From: Candidatus Treponema caballi
GTDB taxonomy: Bacteria > Spirochaetota > Spirochaetia > Treponematales > Treponemataceae
DNA length: 33,450 bases
Assembly: GCA_018066285.1 (NCBI GenBank)
Contig: JAGHRS010000012.1
Coordinates: 1 to 33,450 of the forward strand
Direction of reading: 5' to 3'
The notes beneath the pieces were generated by a model. It had not been told where the DNA came from. It saw only the letters and a list, made by a program, of their open reading frames with translations, and made no database searches. Of the stretch, positions 12 through 8,613 are shown one piece after another. Both the position numbers and the translations under genes were made by a program. The first letter of the stretch is position 1. The number at the start of each line of letters is the position of its first letter.

Positions 12-353
12 ATGGATCCAGCCGTTACAAAACTTGTTGTTCTCATCATTGCAGGCGCAGTCTGCATTTATTACGGCATTCTCTGTGCAAAGGGCGATTC
101 CGTCCTGAAAAACGGGAATGCGTCAAATCCTCAGAGCCTTGATGCCTCTAAAGGATATGACACTACAAAGACAGGCATTGCAGGCGGATATGTCCTGATA
201 TTTGTCGGGGCCCTGACTGTCCTGCTTGGCTTTTTCGTCTTTTTCTTTCCGCAGTATCTGATGAAAGCTGTCATTGTGTATGGCAGTTTTGTTGTTCTTG
301 CTATCTTTGTGCTCATCGTCCTTGTTAAGACTCTTTTCACGAGGAAACCATGA
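12..353 (+). CDS. Small three-helix membrane protein, function unknown
   Basis: A 113-residue protein with hydrophobic segments at about residues 7-25, 57-77 and 86-107. A polar loop lies between the first and second segments and a short basic tail follows the third. I do not recognise a family. The ATG at 12 is the first visible start, but no stop codon separates it from the window edge and no Shine-Dalgarno can be seen in the 11 bases available, so the gene could begin upstream. Its stop overlaps the start of the S41 peptidase gene by four bases (ATGA), which implies translational coupling. A role alongside the membrane-anchored peptidase and AAA protein is inferred from the operon only. 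Confidence 0.7.
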   Translation: MDPAVTKLVVLIIAGAVCIYYGILCAKGDSVLKNGNASNPQSLDASKGYDTTKTGIAGGYVLIFVGALTVLLGFFVFFFPQYLMKAVIVYGSFVVLAIFVLIVLVKTLFTRKP

Positions 354-1678
354 GTAAGAAGAAGATTATCCGCATAGCCATTATAGCGGTTGCAGCCGTC
401 CTTATTCTTGCCGGATGCGCCCTCTTCATCTGGAACAGGTATTTTGACCCATACCGGGGAACGGTGAGCGGATTTGAAAACTCTCTTCCGCTTGAAACTG
501 AACTGACTGTGGAGCAGGCTCAGCGTGACATTGCGTTTGTGTACGCAACGCTTGCGGAACGGCATCCCATGTGGCTTGAGGATAACTCGCCCCGTGTTGA
601 GGATGTGAAAGATCTGTATGTTGATGCGCTTGCCGACCTTTCTCTTGATGAAGACGGCATGGTAACTGCACTTGATGTCTGGCGGGCGGTTTCGAAAATG
701 ACCGCGGCTCTTGGGGATGGACACACATCCGTCTGGTGGCAGAATCCTGACATGCGTTTCATTGACAATCTTATTCTGTATGAAACTGGCGGCAGACCTG
801 CAGCTGTTAACGGGGTTCCCATTGAGGATGTGCTGGAACAGTTCAGGTTGTACTCTTCTTTTGAAACAGAAGCAACGTTTCTGAGCGGTGTTTTCAATAC
901 TAAACTGATACGTAAGCACTTTCTTGACCTTATTGGTATTGATACTTCCAGTGGTGTCCGTTTTACCTGCCGTAAGGATGACGGTACCCTTTATGATTGC
1001 TGGTATACCTTTGTAACTGCAGACAATGTGCTTATGGCTGCTGATGCCGAAGAGAATGGTGATGGCAGCTGGGTGTACTTCAACATTGATCAAGATGCGG
1101 ATCTTGGTGTGTTTACCCTTAAGGAATGCAACTGGAACGATGAGTACCAGAAGACGCTGAAGACCTTTTTTGATGAAGTCGCCGCATCCGGAGTGAAAAG
1201 TGTTGCGGTTGATCTTCGCGGAAATGGCGGCGGAAACTCGCAGGTTGCAAACGAGTTCATCCGCTATCTGCCGGTTGACGGTTATGAAAGCTGGTGGTGC
1301 GATATCCGCTATGGTCCATTTCTGAAACAATTCCACAACGCGCATCATAAAAACAAAAACGCGGCTCCTGTTTTCAATGGAAATGTCTATGTGCTTACTG
1401 ATGTCAACACGTACAGTGCTGCCATGGATTTTGCCATGCTGGTTAAAGATAATGCGCTTGGCTCTGTTGTTGGCGAGGCTTCTGGAAATCAGCCTGGAAG
1501 TTACGGAGACTGTCTTTATTTCCAGCTGCCTGAAAGCAGGCTTGCGCTGTCCGTTTCGTTCAAGAAATGGTACCGTGTTGATCAGACTAAAAACGGTCAG
1601 CTTATAGAGCCGGATTATCCGTGTGCCCCGGATACGGCTCTTGATGAAGTAAAAAGAATTATCGCTGCAAGGAGATAG
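350..1678 (+). CDS. Membrane-anchored S41 family peptidase
   Basis: A 442-residue protein with an N-terminal hydrophobic anchor at residues 6-28. The anchor contains LAGC, which could be a lipobox with Cys23, but the hydrophobic stretch continues past the Cys, so a plain membrane anchor is equally possible. The C-terminal half matches the tail-specific/tricorn-like S41 fold: a VDLRGNGGGN strand-turn near residue 290, the presumed nucleophile Ser356 in NTYSAAMDFA, and a VGEASGNQPGSYGD segment just after it, which carries the conserved Glu of this family. No PDZ domain is obvious; residues 50-120 look helical. GAGGAAA at 341-347 is a good ribosome binding site. The gene overlaps the upstream gene by four bases and is followed two bases later by the AAA gene. 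The substrate is unknown; extracytoplasmic cleavage is inferred from topology. Confidence 0.85.
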   Translation: MSKKKIIRIAIIAVAAVLILAGCALFIWNRYFDPYRGTVSGFENSLPLETELTVEQAQRDIAFVYATLAERHPMWLEDNSPRVEDVKDLYVDALADLSLDEDGMVTALDVWRAVSKMTAALGDGHTSVWWQNPDMRFIDNLILYETGGRPAAVNGVPIEDVLEQFRLYSSFETEATFLSGVFNTKLIRKHFLDLIGIDTSSGVRFTCRKDDGTLYDCWYTFVTADNVLMAADAEENGDGSWVYFNIDQDADLGVFTLKECNWNDEYQKTLKTFFDEVAASGVKSVAVDLRGNGGGNSQVANEFIRYLPVDGYESWWCDIRYGPFLKQFHNAHHKNKNAAPVFNGNVYVLTDVNTYSAAMDFAMLVKDNALGSVVGEASGNQPGSYGDCLYFQLPESRLALSVSFKKWYRVDQTKNGQLIEPDYPCAPDTALDEVKRIIAARR

Positions 1679-1680
1679 AT

Positions 1681-2835
1681 GTGAAAAAACGCGGATTGAG
1701 CCTGAAGACTGTACTTATCATAGCTCTGCTCCTGTGTGCGGGATATGCCGCTTATGTGTTCCTCGTTCCGGCGGAACCACTTGTTCCGTACAGGGATTTT
1801 TACGCCCGTGTGACATCCGGTGGCGTTGATTCCGTCATAATGGATAAGAATGAAATCACCTTTACTTATGAGGAAAACGGCGCTGAAGTTACTGCAAAGA
1901 CGCAGAATCCGCATTCAGCAACGCTTGAAGAAGATCTTCTGCTGAAAGGAATAGCCGTTTCCCAGGCTGCTGACAGCGATCTTTTCTGGACAATGCTCGG
2001 CGACCTCATTTTCTACGGCGTTTTCCTCGGCATCCTCATTTTTGCGTATGTGAAGTTCATCCGCCCGAACCGCTTCAGGATAGTGCATAAGACGGGCGTT
2101 ACCTTTGACAACATCGTCGGTATGGACGGTCTTAAGCGTGATATGGAGCAGATTGTCCACATGATGCGGAACCCGGCGGAGTACGCTAAGAAGGGACTGC
2201 GCCTTCCGAAAGGCATTCTGCTTGAGGGCGGTCCTGGAAACGGAAAGACGCTTTTTGCACGCGCCCTTGCTGGTGAAGCAAAAGTGAACTTCATTCCCGC
2301 CCGCGCAACAGACTTTGAGAGTTTCCTTATTGCGGTCGGCCCGATGAAGGTCAAGCTGCTGTTCGCAAAAGCGCGCCGTCAGGCTCCGTGTATTGTCTTC
2401 ATCGATGAGTTTGACGGAATCGGTACAAAGCGCAATTATTCGGGCTCAGCCATTGAAACGGAGAATACGCGCATTGTTACGGCGCTGCTGAACGAGCTTG
2501 ACGGCTTTACCACGAATGACGGCGTTATGGTCATTGCTGCGACTAACAGCCGTGATGCGCTGGACGAAGCGCTCATCCGCCCGGGCCGCTTCGATGCAAA
2601 GTATACGGTACCGTATCCTGACTTTGACACACGCGCGGCTCTGGCTGAAATGTACATGAGAGGGAAGAATCCTACAGCTGACTGTACGCCGTCTGCGCTT
2701 GCAAAGATGTTGAACGGCGCGAGCTGTGCGCAGATTGAATCAGTGCTCAACAGAGCGCCGCTTATTGCCGCGCAGGCAGGCAGGGAAGCCTTCAATCTTG
2801 AGGATGTGCGGGCCGCTATAAAGGACGGCAACTAG
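1681..2835 (+). CDS. FtsH-like membrane AAA ATPase lacking the protease domain
   Basis: A 384-residue protein starting with GTG at 1681 behind GGAGA at 1671-1675. Its order matches FtsH: TM helix (about 9-29), a small FtsH-type extracytoplasmic domain (about 35-95), second TM helix (about 101-125), then an AAA+ module. Visible motifs are Walker A GGPGNGKT (183-190), Walker B with D242/E243 in FIDEFD, and the second region of homology ending LIRPGRFD with arginine fingers R300 and R303. The protein stops after the AAA lid helices. FtsH would continue with an M41 zinc protease carrying HEXXH, and none is present; the next gene lies beyond a 115-base gap. It may be a remodeller or chaperone working with the S41 peptidase encoded just upstream. 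That pairing is inferred. Confidence 0.88.
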   Translation: MKKRGLSLKTVLIIALLLCAGYAAYVFLVPAEPLVPYRDFYARVTSGGVDSVIMDKNEITFTYEENGAEVTAKTQNPHSATLEEDLLLKGIAVSQAADSDLFWTMLGDLIFYGVFLGILIFAYVKFIRPNRFRIVHKTGVTFDNIVGMDGLKRDMEQIVHMMRNPAEYAKKGLRLPKGILLEGGPGNGKTLFARALAGEAKVNFIPARATDFESFLIAVGPMKVKLLFAKARRQAPCIVFIDEFDGIGTKRNYSGSAIETENTRIVTALLNELDGFTTNDGVMVIAATNSRDALDEALIRPGRFDAKYTVPYPDFDTRAALAEMYMRGKNPTADCTPSALAKMLNGASCAQIESVLNRAPLIAAQAGREAFNLEDVRAAIKDGN

Positions 2836-2950: not shown

Positions 2951-3202
2951 ATGGAACCATGCGAGAAATTAGCAGGATGTGATTTTTATCAGGGACACAT
3001 GATATCCACATCCGGTATCGGTGAAATGCTCAAGAAGAGGTATTGCGAAGCTGGCAATAAGGCTAATTGTGCCCGTTACCAGGTATGTACTCAGCTGGGT
3101 AAAGAATACCTCGATAATACTCTTTTCCCTAATATGACCGATCGTGCAGATGAAATGATTGCACGCTACAAAAACAGGGTCATGAAGGAGAAACAGGCGT
3201 AA
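2951..3202 (+). CDS. Small Cys-rich protein with KYC/CARY-type motif
   Basis: An 83-residue soluble protein with cysteines at 4, 10, 32, 40 and 46, arranged as C-x5-C, then RYC and CARYxxC. The C-terminal half is helical and charged. From memory, a similar module (paired N-terminal Cys, then KYC and CARY followed by an LG helix and a PN turn) recurs as stand-alone proteins or tails of signalling proteins in spirochaetes and other bacteria, but I cannot name the family. Metal or Fe-S binding is a guess from the cysteines. GGGAG just before the ATG at 2951 supports the start. The 115-base AT-rich gap upstream suggests its own promoter, and a strong terminator follows at 3295-3328. Confidence 0.75.
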   Translation: MEPCEKLAGCDFYQGHMISTSGIGEMLKKRYCEAGNKANCARYQVCTQLGKEYLDNTLFPNMTDRADEMIARYKNRVMKEKQA

Positions 3203-4863: not shown

Positions 4864-4936
4864 ATGATGGATAAAGGTGTTTGTGCCTATAGGTAAAATG
4901 CATGAAAAGCGAATTTTTTCAGTATGATTAAAGAAC

Positions 4937-4965
4937 TTGAAGTAATACTTAAAAGGGAGTATACT
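4937..4965 (+). promoter_or_regulatory. Promoter of the iorA-iorB-ligase operon
   Basis: A -35 box TTGAAG (4937-4942) and a -10 box TATACT (4960-4965) are separated by 17 bases. Transcription would start near 4972, leaving a leader of about 24 bases with GGAGA at 4985-4989. This argues against the in-frame ATG at 4924, which lies upstream of the promoter. Confidence 0.7.
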
Positions 4966-4995
4966 TATTCAAAATCAAAATATCCGGAGATAACG

Positions 4996-6717
4996 ATGAA
5001 AGATTGTGTTCTGCTCGGAGATGAGGCTCTTGCACTTGGTGCCCTTCATGCCGGGCTTTCTGCAGGTTTTGGGTACCCGGGAACACCCTCAACCGAAATC
5101 CTTGAGTATCTGATCGACAATTACGAGAAGAATGATGGCCCTGTTGCACAGTGGTGCTCAAACGAAAAGACCGCTTACGAAGCTGCACTCGGCGTTTCAT
5201 TTGCCGGAAAACGTGCACTCGTTACCATGAAGCACGTCGGCCTTAACGTAGCCGCTGATCCGTTCATGAACTCATCCCTTCTGGGCATTAAAGGCGGTCT
5301 CGTCGTTATCGTTGCAGATGACCCGAGCATGCATTCAAGCCAGGGCGAGCAGGATACACGCTTTTATGCAGACTTCGCGATGATTCCATGCTTTGAACCG
5401 ACAACCCAGCAGGAAGCATACGAAATGATGTTCGATGCTTTCGCTTTTTCTGAAGCTCATCACGTACCGGTCCTTATGCGCATGGTTACCCGCCTTTCAC
5501 ACAGCCGCGCAGTCGTTCATCCAAAGGATGAGAAGGATTGCCTTTCAGAGAACGCTCTTGAAAAAGGCGAGCGCAAAGAGTGGATGCTGCTTCCGGCTCT
5601 TGCACGCAAGAACTACGATAAGATGATTTCAAAGCAGGAGCTTTTCGCAGGCTGGGCTGATGCAAATCAGTGGAACAAACTGACGCTCAACGAAAAGAGA
5701 AGCGACCTTGCCATCGTTACAAGCGGTCTTGGCCGTAACTACTTCCTTGAAAATCTTGAAGACTTTGCAGCTCTTTCTGAAGCCCGCTTCCCGGGACAGG
5801 GACTGCCTTCAACACTGCATATCGGAACGCTGCCACTGCCGCGCGAGGCACTGAAAAAGCTTGCTGATACTGCAGAGACAATCCTCGTCATTGAAGAGGG
5901 CATGCCGTTCGTAGAAAAGCAGCTTGCGGGAATCCTTCCGCAGAAGACAAAGGTCGTCGGAAAGCTGACCGGCCTGCTGCCAAGAAGTGGCGAGCTTAAT
6001 CCTGATACTGTACGCGCAGCTCTCGGACTGGCACCTATCCAGTCAGCACAGGCTGTACTCGCAACAACTGACAGCGCGGCTGCAGAAATCTGCGCCAACC
6101 TGCCTGGCCGTCCGCCACAGCTCTGCAAGGGTTGTCCGCACCACGACTCATACACCGCGCTTAACAAGGCCGTTGAGATGCTTGCTGCAAAAGCAGGAGA
6201 GCAGAACGTATCCGTTCATTCAGACATCGGCTGCTACGCACTCGGCGGAACCGCTCCGCTCAATGCCTGCGAGACTATCGTCTGCATGGGTGCCTCAATC
6301 GGTATGGCACGCGGTGCTTCACAGGCAGGCGTCAAGTACACGTTCGGTGTTATCGGTGACTCAACATTCCTGCATTCAGGCATGACAAACCTGGTTGACT
6401 GCGTTTCAACAAAGACACCGGTCACCATCATGCTCGTAGATAACTCAATCGTCGCAATGACAGGCTGCCAGAAGACAATCCTGCCTTCAAGCCAGCTTCA
6501 GCCGGTTGTCGAAGGCCTTGGCGTTGAACCTGAGCACGTCCGCGTGCTTGAGACAAGCCCTAACAAGATAGAAGAAAACGCACGCATCCTTGCTGAAGAA
6601 GCAGAGTACCGCGGCGTTTCAGTCGTCATTATGAGACGTGAGTGCCTTGAGGCATTCCGCTTGAGGACAAAGGCTGCAAAGATAGCTGCTGCAAAAGCTG
6701 CAAAGGGAGGCAACTGA
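4996..6717 (+). CDS. iorA: Indolepyruvate:ferredoxin oxidoreductase alpha subunit, lacking the C-terminal ferredoxin domain
   Basis: A 573-residue subunit of the enzyme that interconverts arylpyruvate plus CoA with aryl-acetyl-CoA, CO2 and reduced ferredoxin. The N-terminal pyrimidine-binding half starts MKDCVLLGDEALALGAL with GYPGTPSTE at 26-34. A conserved CKGCPHH is at 377-383. The thiamine-diphosphate motif runs from GDS (454-456) to VDNS (481-484). Family members normally end in a ferredoxin-like domain with two CxxCxxC-type clusters; here the protein ends in a Lys/Ala-rich tail with no cysteine cluster. The start at 4996 is chosen because GGAGA lies six bases upstream and the promoter ends at 4965. 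The stop overlaps the iorB start by one base. Electrons may go to a separate ferredoxin. Confidence 0.93.
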   Translation: MKDCVLLGDEALALGALHAGLSAGFGYPGTPSTEILEYLIDNYEKNDGPVAQWCSNEKTAYEAALGVSFAGKRALVTMKHVGLNVAADPFMNSSLLGIKGGLVVIVADDPSMHSSQGEQDTRFYADFAMIPCFEPTTQQEAYEMMFDAFAFSEAHHVPVLMRMVTRLSHSRAVVHPKDEKDCLSENALEKGERKEWMLLPALARKNYDKMISKQELFAGWADANQWNKLTLNEKRSDLAIVTSGLGRNYFLENLEDFAALSEARFPGQGLPSTLHIGTLPLPREALKKLADTAETILVIEEGMPFVEKQLAGILPQKTKVVGKLTGLLPRSGELNPDTVRAALGLAPIQSAQAVLATTDSAAAEICANLPGRPPQLCKGCPHHDSYTALNKAVEMLAAKAGEQNVSVHSDIGCYALGGTAPLNACETIVCMGASIGMARGASQAGVKYTFGVIGDSTFLHSGMTNLVDCVSTKTPVTIMLVDNSIVAMTGCQKTILPSSQLQPVVEGLGVEPEHVRVLETSPNKIEENARILAEEAEYRGVSVVIMRRECLEAFRLRTKAAKIAAAKAAKGGN

Positions 6718-7283
6718 TGAAATACGATATTCTTCTCGCCGGTGTCGGCGGACAGGGTGTTCTTTCAATCGCTGCAATTATTGCTGCAGCAGCCATGCAG
6801 GACGGCCTTCAGGTACGTCAGTCAGAAGTTCACGGCATGAGCCAGCGCGGTGGCGGCGTTCAGGCACACCTCCGCATTTCAGACACGACAATTGCGTCTG
6901 ACCTGATTCCGCTCGGAAAGGCAGACATGATCCTTTCAATGGAGCCGGTGGAAAGCCTCCGCTATCTGTCATGGCTCAACAAGGATGGCGTTCTGATTAC
7001 TGCTGCAGAGTCGTTTGTGAACATCAACAACTATCCTGACATTGAGAAGATTTATTCAGCAATAAAGGCACTGCCTTCTTCCCGCATTGTGAAGTCAGCA
7101 GAACTTGCAAAAGAAGCTGGAAACATCAAGTGCGAGAACATGGTACTTATCGGTGCCGCACTTGAGTACATGCCGGTAAAGAAGGAAACGGTGGTCGATT
7201 CAGTCCGCGCACGCTTCGCTGCTAAAGACCCGATGCTCGTTGAAGCAAACATGAAAGCACTTGAGCTTGGTGCTCAGAAATAA
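6717..7283 (+). CDS. iorB: Indolepyruvate:ferredoxin oxidoreductase beta subunit
   Basis: A 188-residue protein with the gamma-type domain of 2-oxoacid:ferredoxin oxidoreductases. It opens with the glycine-rich LLAGVGGQGVLSIA turn (6-19) and has the family-typical QSEVHGMSQRGGGVQAHLR segment (about 35-53). It pairs with IorA to form the cytoplasmic oxidoreductase. The start overlaps the iorA stop (TGATG) and GGGAGG lies about five bases upstream, so the subunits are probably translationally coupled. Length is normal for the family. The phenylacetate-CoA ligase gene follows after 13 bases, so all three are one transcription unit. Confidence 0.93.
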   Translation: MKYDILLAGVGGQGVLSIAAIIAAAAMQDGLQVRQSEVHGMSQRGGGVQAHLRISDTTIASDLIPLGKADMILSMEPVESLRYLSWLNKDGVLITAAESFVNINNYPDIEKIYSAIKALPSSRIVKSAELAKEAGNIKCENMVLIGAALEYMPVKKETVVDSVRARFAAKDPMLVEANMKALELGAQK

Positions 7284-7296
7284 AAAGGATAAGCAA

Positions 7297-8613
7297 ATGG
7301 CTAGAGAATTTTCATACTGGGACAAAGACGCTGAGACAATGAGCCGCGATACCATCGAGGCCTTCCAGCTGGCTGCTCTTAAAAAGCAGGTCACAAATGC
7401 ACTCAAGACTCCTTTTTATAAAGAGCGCCTGAACAAAGCCGGCATCAACGGTCCGGATGACATCAAGACGCTTGCTGACCTGCGCAAGATCCCGTTTACT
7501 ACAAAGCACGATCTCCGCGAAGTGTATCCGTATGGTCTTCTCGCCGTTCCTTTTGACCAGGTTGTCCGCGTTCACGCTTCAAGTGGAACGACAGGAACAC
7601 CGACCGTCATTTACCTGACTGCAAAAGACGTAGACATGGCTGCGGACACAATGGCACGCGGTCTCGCAGGCGCTGGCTGTACTGCAGACGATACCTGCCA
7701 GAACATGATGACCTACGGTCTGTTCACCGGCGGTATGAACTTCCACTACGGCGCTGAAAAAGTCGGAATGACTGTTATCCCGACAAGTTCAGGAAATACA
7801 CTGCGCCAGATTAAGTTCATGCACGACTTCGGCACATCAGTCACCCACGCAACCCCAAGCTACATGCTGCACCTGCATCAGGCAATCAAGGAAAGCGAGT
7901 GGAAGCGCGAGGACTTCAAGTGGAGGATCGGTATTTCCGGTGCTGAGCCATACTCAGAAGAGCTCCGCAACAAGATGGAGAAAGAACTGGGTATTGAAGT
8001 TTACAACTGCTATGGTATGAGCGAGCTCAACGGTCCTGGTGTTGCATTTGAATGTCAGATGAGACAGGGAATGCACGTCTGGGAAGACCGCTACATCATG
8101 GAAATCATCAATCCTGAGACACTGGAACCAGTACAGGACGGTGAGGAAGGCGAGCTTGTCATGACAATCCTCTGCCGTGACGCAATGCCGCTGCTCCGCT
8201 ACAGAACACGCGATTTGACACACGTCATCACCGAGCCGTGCCCATGCGGAAGAACACACCGCCGTATCGCACGCTTCACCGGCCGCACCGACGATATGCT
8301 CATCATCAACGGCGTCAACGTATTCCCAAGTCAGATTGAGGAAGTACTCCTTAAAGAGAAGGGAGTCGGTGCAAACTACCTCATCGTAGTTGAGAAGAAG
8401 GGCGACATGGATAAGCTCACCGTTCAGGTTGAGGTAACTCCAGAGCTGTTCGCCGACGATGCACGCGTCATGAATACACTGCGCGACAAACTCCGCGAAG
8501 AGATGTCAGCCCTCATCACCATTAAACCGATCATCGAGCTTAAGGAACCGGGCTCAATCCCGACGACTGAAGGCAAGGCAAAGCGCGTAAACGACCTGCG
8601 CCCGAAAGCATAA
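7297..8613 (+). CDS. paaK: Phenylacetate-CoA ligase (AMP-forming)
   Basis: A 438-residue adenylate-forming ligase, normal length for PaaK. It activates phenylacetate or a related arylacetate with ATP and CoA to the aryl-acetyl-CoA. The phosphate-binding loop HASSGTTGTPTV is at 93-104, the adenine-binding YNCYGMSELNGPG is near 230-245, and the C-terminal domain has RTDDMLIINGVNVFPSQIEE. The ATG at 7297 follows AAAGGAT and starts the usual MAREFSYWD; an in-frame upstream extension would lie inside iorB. The position behind iorAB suggests the ligase and oxidoreductase share aryl-acetyl-CoA. The set could run toward arylpyruvate (aromatic amino acid synthesis from salvaged aryl acids) or toward aryl acid formation. 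The aryl group cannot be told from sequence. Confidence 0.92.
   Translation: MAREFSYWDKDAETMSRDTIEAFQLAALKKQVTNALKTPFYKERLNKAGINGPDDIKTLADLRKIPFTTKHDLREVYPYGLLAVPFDQVVRVHASSGTTGTPTVIYLTAKDVDMAADTMARGLAGAGCTADDTCQNMMTYGLFTGGMNFHYGAEKVGMTVIPTSSGNTLRQIKFMHDFGTSVTHATPSYMLHLHQAIKESEWKREDFKWRIGISGAEPYSEELRNKMEKELGIEVYNCYGMSELNGPGVAFECQMRQGMHVWEDRYIMEIINPETLEPVQDGEEGELVMTILCRDAMPLLRYRTRDLTHVITEPCPCGRTHRRIARFTGRTDDMLIINGVNVFPSQIEEVLLKEKGVGANYLIVVEKKGDMDKLTVQVEVTPELFADDARVMNTLRDKLREEMSALITIKPIIELKEPGSIPTTEGKAKRVNDLRPKA

Follow-up and report, generated by a model that had tools for sequence, protein, structure and literature searches.

A protease-less FtsH relative in Candidatus Treponema caballi and its family, proposed as a stand-alone membrane-protein dislocase

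Removal of membrane proteins without their destruction is known mainly from the eukaryotic ATPases Msp1/ATAD1 and Cdc48, and Msp1/ATAD1 belongs to another AAA clade than the protein described here. In organelle AAA proteases and in chloroplast FtsHi complexes, paralogous subunits regulate in mixed rings. Here we describe a bacterial membrane AAA ATPase that resembles FtsH and ends before the M41 protease domain. Its gene lies near one end of contig JAGHRS010000012.1 of Candidatus Treponema caballi (assembly GCA_018066285.1), which we analyzed over its entire 33,450 bases (the window); the genome is 2.9 Mb in 75 contigs. The original prediction, made from the sequence alone, had tentatively joined this gene with the two before it, for an S41 peptidase and a small membrane protein, into one device for handling membrane proteins. 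We keep the description of the AAA protein and arrive at a different view of how it may work.

Two kinds of described proteins come close. Plant FtsHi proteins are presented, in the available parts of three papers (PMC9020784, PMC8197885, PMC11266112), as FtsHs that have lost their zinc ligands and act in chloroplast protein import; it is for plastids that inactive FtsH relatives are discussed in this literature. Like the FtsHi proteins of plants and algae, the AAA protein would be an FtsH relative working without proteolysis, and FtsHi motor structures are among its best fold matches. The two differ in that FtsHi proteins keep an M41 domain whose zinc motif is lost, whereas our protein lacks the domain altogether and comes from bacterial hosts. 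Paralogues of FtsH/FtsHi in Firmicutes are mentioned after Shao et al. 2018 in the parts seen of PMC6460958 and PMC8197885. Among the open-licence papers listed by our searches, we found none that describes an FtsH relative from bacteria lacking the protease domain. The second kind is Msp1/ATAD1, which pulls and releases membrane proteins in eukaryotes and is built differently, according to the sections available of PMC7018516. It too is a short membrane-anchored AAA protein without a protease, and its kind of action is possibly the same. However, it has one membrane helix and a linker domain where our protein has two hydrophobic stretches and an FtsH_ext-type domain, and its first pore loop is doubly aromatic (PMC7018516, same sections) where we read Leu-Ile in the window and Phe-Met in most relatives.

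By hydropathy and profiles, the AAA protein consists of two hydrophobic stretches that flank an FtsH_ext-type domain, followed by an AAA domain and a lid, with which it ends. In Pfam the AAA domain (PF00004) scores 117.6 bits and FtsH_ext 24.1 bits, the latter 1.4 bits under its curated cut-off of 25.5, and the protein has no M41 match. The best NCBIfam model is FtsH itself (TIGR01241, residues 33–380) at 258.4 bits, which does not reach the cut-off of 600. We looked for a hidden M41 domain further downstream and rejected the idea, since the frame closes at 2835 and the next genes encode an 83-aa protein and then, on the opposite strand, what we take to be a sugar kinase. The original prediction of an FtsH-type protein with two membrane helices, a periplasmic domain and intact ATPase motifs that stops before the M41 protease is borne out.

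An AlphaFold model made with a 10-row alignment has a mean predicted local distance difference test score (pLDDT) of 80.6 and a predicted template modeling score (pTM) of 0.62. Comparison with solved structures, which covers mostly residues 124–384, places FtsH first (4ww0; Z 28.5, root-mean-square deviation 2.4, 244 aligned residues). The Arabidopsis Ycf2-FtsHi motor ties with it within 1 Z (8xku_E; Z 27.7, deviation 2.3, 254 residues), and Ycf2-FtsHi structures stand third and fifth.

To compare motor residues across relatives we used two alignments. The first held 58 short proteins selected by the letters PG.GKT and DEFDGIG and 121 FtsHs selected by G.PG.GKT, HE.GH and R[PA]GRFD, which means that the conservation of those letters in it reflects the selection; one of the 59 given short rows (L228, with DEFDSIG) was dropped. 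The second held 59 short members picked by similarity alone, all of which were kept, and it is the source of the 59/59 counts below. The Walker A lysine, the Walker B DE, the sensor Asn289, the DGF motif, R300 and R303 are kept in 59/59 members, and HExxH is found in 0/59. DGF we take to be the inter-subunit signaling motif of AAA proteases, and R300 and R303 are presumably the two arginine fingers. The shared likeness to FtsH extends over the membrane helices, the FtsH_ext domain, the AAA core, these motifs and the best profile and fold matches.

Besides the missing M41 domain, the family differs from FtsH in single residues, pore loops and linker length. All 59 members have Asn187 (giving PGNGKT) where all 121 FtsHs have T; the same holds, member against FtsH, for S214 (E or Q), K225 (R), F244 (I or L) and V/I266 (L). 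Pore loop 1 reads SMFMAIGP in most treponeme members versus EMFVGVGA in most FtsHs, and in pore loop 2 treponemes have SGSAIETEN-like and Clostridia SGTGIDKEN-like letters, versus GGGNDERE-like ones in FtsHs (rows without the second motif in our pore-loop motif listing reflect a narrow search pattern). From Walker A to the C terminus there are 183–216 residues in 58 members and at least 391 in FtsHs, with one exception of 121 at 327. The linker between the second membrane helix and Walker A, delimited by a hydropathy rule, is 50–56 residues long in 57 members (mode 53) and 56–74 in the 121 FtsHs (mode 69). Judging from this shorter linker, the AAA ring may sit nearer the membrane than in FtsH.

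The gene is present in 10 of 59 near genomes, the window's own included (E 1e-60). A search with the protein of a congener (E 1e-62) matched 31 of 392 genomes sampled across the phylum; 30 of those 31 belong to the window's family, which its named relatives indicate to be Treponemataceae, and one to another family of the class. Within the family, with the same query and a completeness of 90% requested, 64 of 134 genomes carry it. Among the matches listed, close ones include Treponema metagenome-assembled genomes, a Spirochaetaceae one from water-buffalo rumen, and a single one from Clostridia. In a sample of 391 genomes of one Clostridia class, nine had proteins of the short kind, counting the query genome (open frames of 391–405 codons), and the remaining matches listed had open frames of 588–652 codons. 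Our view across phyla comes from a wide contig scan and covers the matches listed, and members in other phyla are possible. Similar-looking plasmid AAA proteins were rejected: two of 324 records were examined, both FtsH-like with HEAGH. Pfam scans of members gave FtsH_ext in 15/15 at E 0.01 (10/10 and 5/5) and M41 in 0/15.

A tree of 89 AAA domains separates 36 short proteins from 53 FtsHs by one branch with 100/100 support. The FtsHs came from spirochaetes, Bacillota, Pseudomonadota, cyanobacteria and others, and included both FtsHs of the window's genome, which group with those of other treponemes. The tree is unrooted and contains neither PAN nor CDC48, its bootstrap had yet to settle, and the stems on either side are long, so that branches may be joined falsely; because of the unsettled bootstrap and the lack of an outside root, it speaks for separateness and not for the order of events. 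The ratio of nonsynonymous to synonymous substitution rates is 0.06–0.26 in 8 of 12 pairs of short genes (three pairs were saturated and one was identical), and the gene is under purifying selection. The AAA gene is an old family of protease-less FtsH relatives, separate from FtsH. As an observation apart, the AAA match carries one internal stop in two genomes (L160 of G393 and L161 of G351), and the open reading frame of L161 is also without its N-terminal part, a sign of decay in some species.

The window's genome also has two full-length FtsHs, one with HEAGH (L002, 797.9 bits) and one with HETGH (L003, 787.6 bits), both above the 600-bit cut-off. With two complete FtsHs present, the AAA protein is no substitute for an absent one. 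The original prediction had allowed for a recent truncation in a genome lacking a full FtsH, which is not what we find, and we reject a recent truncation of a local FtsH on the tree, the conservation and the purifying selection. We also rejected the idea that the AAA protein replaces degenerate resident FtsHs, as the long FtsH-type open reading frames that we read all have HEXGH. Across the window's family, an M41 match is found in 133 of 134 genomes (E 1e-10). The number of M41 genes is one in genus g4, two in g1, one or two in g13 and three in g19. In g4, the M41 scores of the single FtsHs range from about E 1e-48 to 1e-68 with HEXGH intact in those read, and by eye this spread does not track the AAA gene.

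We give about an even chance to the AAA protein being a stand-alone membrane-protein unfoldase or dislocase, one that would release its substrates rather than degrade them. The starting points are observations: the architecture, the lack of a protease domain, the intact motifs, the separateness from FtsH, the purifying selection, the complete FtsHs alongside, and the lack of a fixed neighbor. FtsH's membrane and motor parts without the cutting chamber suggest a ring that pulls and then lets go. The protein would form a hexamer in the inner membrane, with its N and C termini inside and the FtsH-type domain predicted to lie in the periplasm. Driven by ATP, it would pull membrane proteins, whole or in part, through the pore into the cytoplasm, and would let them go unfolded, whereupon they might fold again, be inserted anew, or be broken down by soluble proteases. 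By analogy, the protein would be a bacterial counterpart of Msp1/ATAD1 in action, not in descent.

Several points weigh against this. Fold does not decide the matter, as Z values of 24–27 are reached by proteasomal ATPases, PAN and p97 too and the fold match by itself does not tell this function from others. At the aromatic position of pore loop 1, 120 of 121 FtsHs have F or Y; among the 59 members, 48 have F, 6 have I, 4 have L and 1 has V. The window protein has Leu216 there, and shares its loop, SFLIAVGP, with the copy in G393, which carries an internal stop. Msp1 and Cdc48 extract membrane proteins by gripping them with doubly aromatic pore loops, as stated in the part seen of PMC7018516. 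Read from sequence, the family, window copy included, has less aromatic grip than these extractors, which we see as the strongest point against a dislocase. Because extractors use the extra aromatic grip, those members that have Leu or Ile there may pull only weakly, or act otherwise. With 64 of 134 genomes carrying it, the gene is patchy and many species can do without it; in two of those 64 (G393 and G351) the match is broken by one internal stop, which means that the gene can be lost. Finally, nothing in the loci that we read ties its gene context to membrane-protein quality control.

The main rival is that the AAA protein is a regulatory subunit of FtsH, entering mixed hexamers with the full-length protein and lowering or redirecting its proteolysis, which we consider unlikely. 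The membrane and periplasmic layout is the same as in FtsH, the DGF motif and arginine fingers are kept, and nearly every genome of the family has an M41 protein for it to join. In at least 8 of the 64 AAA-bearing genomes the gene lies 5–20 kb from a full FtsH gene. We treat this nearness as a weak lead: seven of the eight cases belong to one genus, and in the eighth (G018) the nearby FtsH is of the HEAGH type, whereas those read from the other near cases are HETGH. M41 gene number also does not track the AAA gene, as all five genomes of g1 have two M41 genes while three have the AAA gene and two do not. The protease domain has a key role in partner choice according to a review seen in part (PMC9020784). 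One AAA-bearing genome that is 96% complete (G339) has no M41 match at E 1e-10, probably through an assembly gap, so as a point against a subunit role it carries the caveat that the genome may be incomplete. The other motor-like reading, that the protein is a translocation motor on a membrane channel like chloroplast Ycf2-FtsHi and not a quality-control dislocase, strikes us as quite improbable. Protease-independent FtsH relatives with such a role exist (PMC9020784, in the part seen), the high placing of the Ycf2-FtsHi structures fits, and the family's pore loops are unlike those of FtsH. However, in the fold comparison AAA domains with a variety of functions come close in score, and no channel partner can be named because no gene stays beside the AAA gene across the loci read.

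The remaining two rivals give the neighboring genes a part. Profiles and open reading frames agree with the original prediction on what the three genes are: a small membrane protein, a membrane-anchored S41 peptidase and the FtsH-like AAA protein. All three are on the plus strand (Table 1); the first two genes overlap by 4 bases, a gap of 2 bases separates the S41 gene from the AAA gene, and AAGGAG, which is ribosome-binding-like, stands six bases upstream of the GTG start of the latter. The spacing is operon-like. The gene for the small membrane protein starts 12 bases from the contig end, so its 5' side is the contig edge. The S41 peptidase matches PF03572 at 65.8 bits (cut-off 24) and has modest profile matches to retinol-binding protein 3, CtpB and tail-specific protease as solved relatives. 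It has one N-terminal hydrophobic segment and also a lipobox-like LAGC. Ser356 (TYSAA) is conserved in 4/4 aligned S41 sequences and His125 (GDGHT) in 3/4, the fourth ending before that region; we take them to be the nucleophile and the general base. The small membrane protein has hydrophobic segments at residues 1–28 and 53–113 and matches DUF3784 weakly (E 3.2e-4, 21.3 bits, where the curated cut-off is 28.1). The original prediction suggested one machine of the three, with unfolding and cleavage split between proteins on opposite sides of the membrane, and the spacing, together with the retained serine, histidine and membrane anchor of the S41 enzyme, would fit it. The synteny is not conserved in relatives, an outcome that the original prediction itself had named as refuting, and for this reason we reject the trio as a device and rate it as very unlikely. 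A tblastn search at E 1e-3 found neither partner in 43 AAA loci of other genomes (stretches of about 9–17 kb, nine of them from Clostridia). Within five open reading frames on either side of the AAA gene, homologues of either were found in the window only, among 35 loci that include it; fewer frames were read at contig ends, and one locus without a row there (L163) was covered by tblastn. Some loci stop at contig ends, and in one (L017) no sequence precedes the AAA gene. In nine near genomes other genes adjoin the AAA gene. S41 homologues (E 1e-15) occur in 3 of the 58 other near genomes and none is beside the AAA gene: in G028 the two are on different contigs, and G003 and G032 (the latter only 63% complete) have no AAA match at E 1e-60. 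The small membrane protein was matched in 0 of these 58 genomes, and a search near the S41 genes of those three found no match to it either. The proposed split of unfolding and cleavage has no backing beyond gene adjacency in a single genome. The Prc/Ctp and IRBP-like S41 peptidases bear on our protein as the kind of product its neighbor encodes, and the link is not conserved; this peptidase and the small membrane protein are most likely neighbors in an operon-like stretch of this species, not machine parts, and the small protein is probably outside the AAA system. That the AAA ATPase forms an anti-phage pair of the IetAS kind with a serine protease is extremely unlikely. PADLOC's IetA models do match the AAA domain (E 5.5e-33), but on the NCBIfam anti-phage ATPase model the protein reaches 106.7 bits against a cut-off of 510, far below its FtsH score and below the genome's true FtsHs (114.3 and 124.1 bits). 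The S41 protein has no PADLOC match at E 0.001, and the AAA-S41 pairing is not conserved.

Table 1. Features of the window around the AAA gene, with positions in the window
Feature	Position	Strand	Basis
Small membrane protein, 113 aa, weakly DUF3784-like	12..353	+	Open reading frame, weak profile match, hydropathy
S41-family peptidase, 442 aa, N-terminal membrane anchor	350..1678	+	Profile match, hydropathy
His125 codon (GDGHT), presumed S41 general base	722..724	+	Alignment
Ser356 codon (TYSAA), presumed S41 nucleophile	1415..1417	+	Alignment
Protease-less FtsH-like membrane AAA ATPase, 384 aa, GTG start	1681..2835	+	Profiles, tree, model
AAA protein, first membrane helix, residues 8–28	1702..1764	+	Model, hydropathy
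AAA protein, periplasmic FtsH_ext-type domain, about residues 29–100	1765..1980	+	Profile, model
AAA protein, second membrane helix, about residues 101–127, then short linker	1981..2061	+	Model, hydropathy
AAA protein, Walker A with family-specific PGNGKT	2227..2250	+	Alignment
AAA protein, pore loop 1, residues 214–219, SFLIAV here, SMFMAI in most treponeme relatives	2320..2337	+	
AAA protein, Walker B, IVFIDEFD	2392..2415	+	Alignment
AAA protein, pore loop 2 region, RNYSGSAIETENT; GGGNDERE-like letters in FtsHs	2431..2469	+	Alignment
AAA protein, DGF motif, residues 274–276	2500..2508	+	Alignment; role presumed
AAA protein, RPGR with R300 and R303	2578..2589	+	Alignment; arginine-finger role presumed
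83-aa protein with four spaced cysteines	2951..3202	+	Open reading frame reading, locus comparison

The 83-aa protein encoded after the AAA gene has cysteines in C-x5-C and YC...CARY and no family match above cut-off. Its gene follows the AAA gene in four genomes of the genus, and tblastn matched it in 3 of the 43 AAA loci, all of the window's genus. We rejected it as a partner of the AAA protein because it is present in 15 of the 59 near genomes, several of them without the AAA gene. In eight Clostridia loci (L242 gave no row), neighbors are shared by two or three at most, ABC-transporter ATPases apart. The AAA gene is without a fixed gene neighbor across the loci read. Further along, positions 4924–8613 of the window presumably encode an indolepyruvate ferredoxin oxidoreductase of two subunits and a phenylacetate-CoA-ligase-like enzyme. 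A gene similar to the last of these (50% identity) stands two genes before the AAA gene in two other loci (L015 and L016).

For the family as a whole, we hold tentatively, at a little less than an even chance, that treponemes and Clostridia have a bacterial family of protease-free, FtsH-related dislocases that would remove or remodel membrane proteins without destroying them. If this is true, a conserved family of bacterial proteins that has FtsH's membrane and motor parts but no protease would separate extraction from degradation in a way that can be tested, and it would offer a comparison for how protease-less relatives of FtsH became motors.

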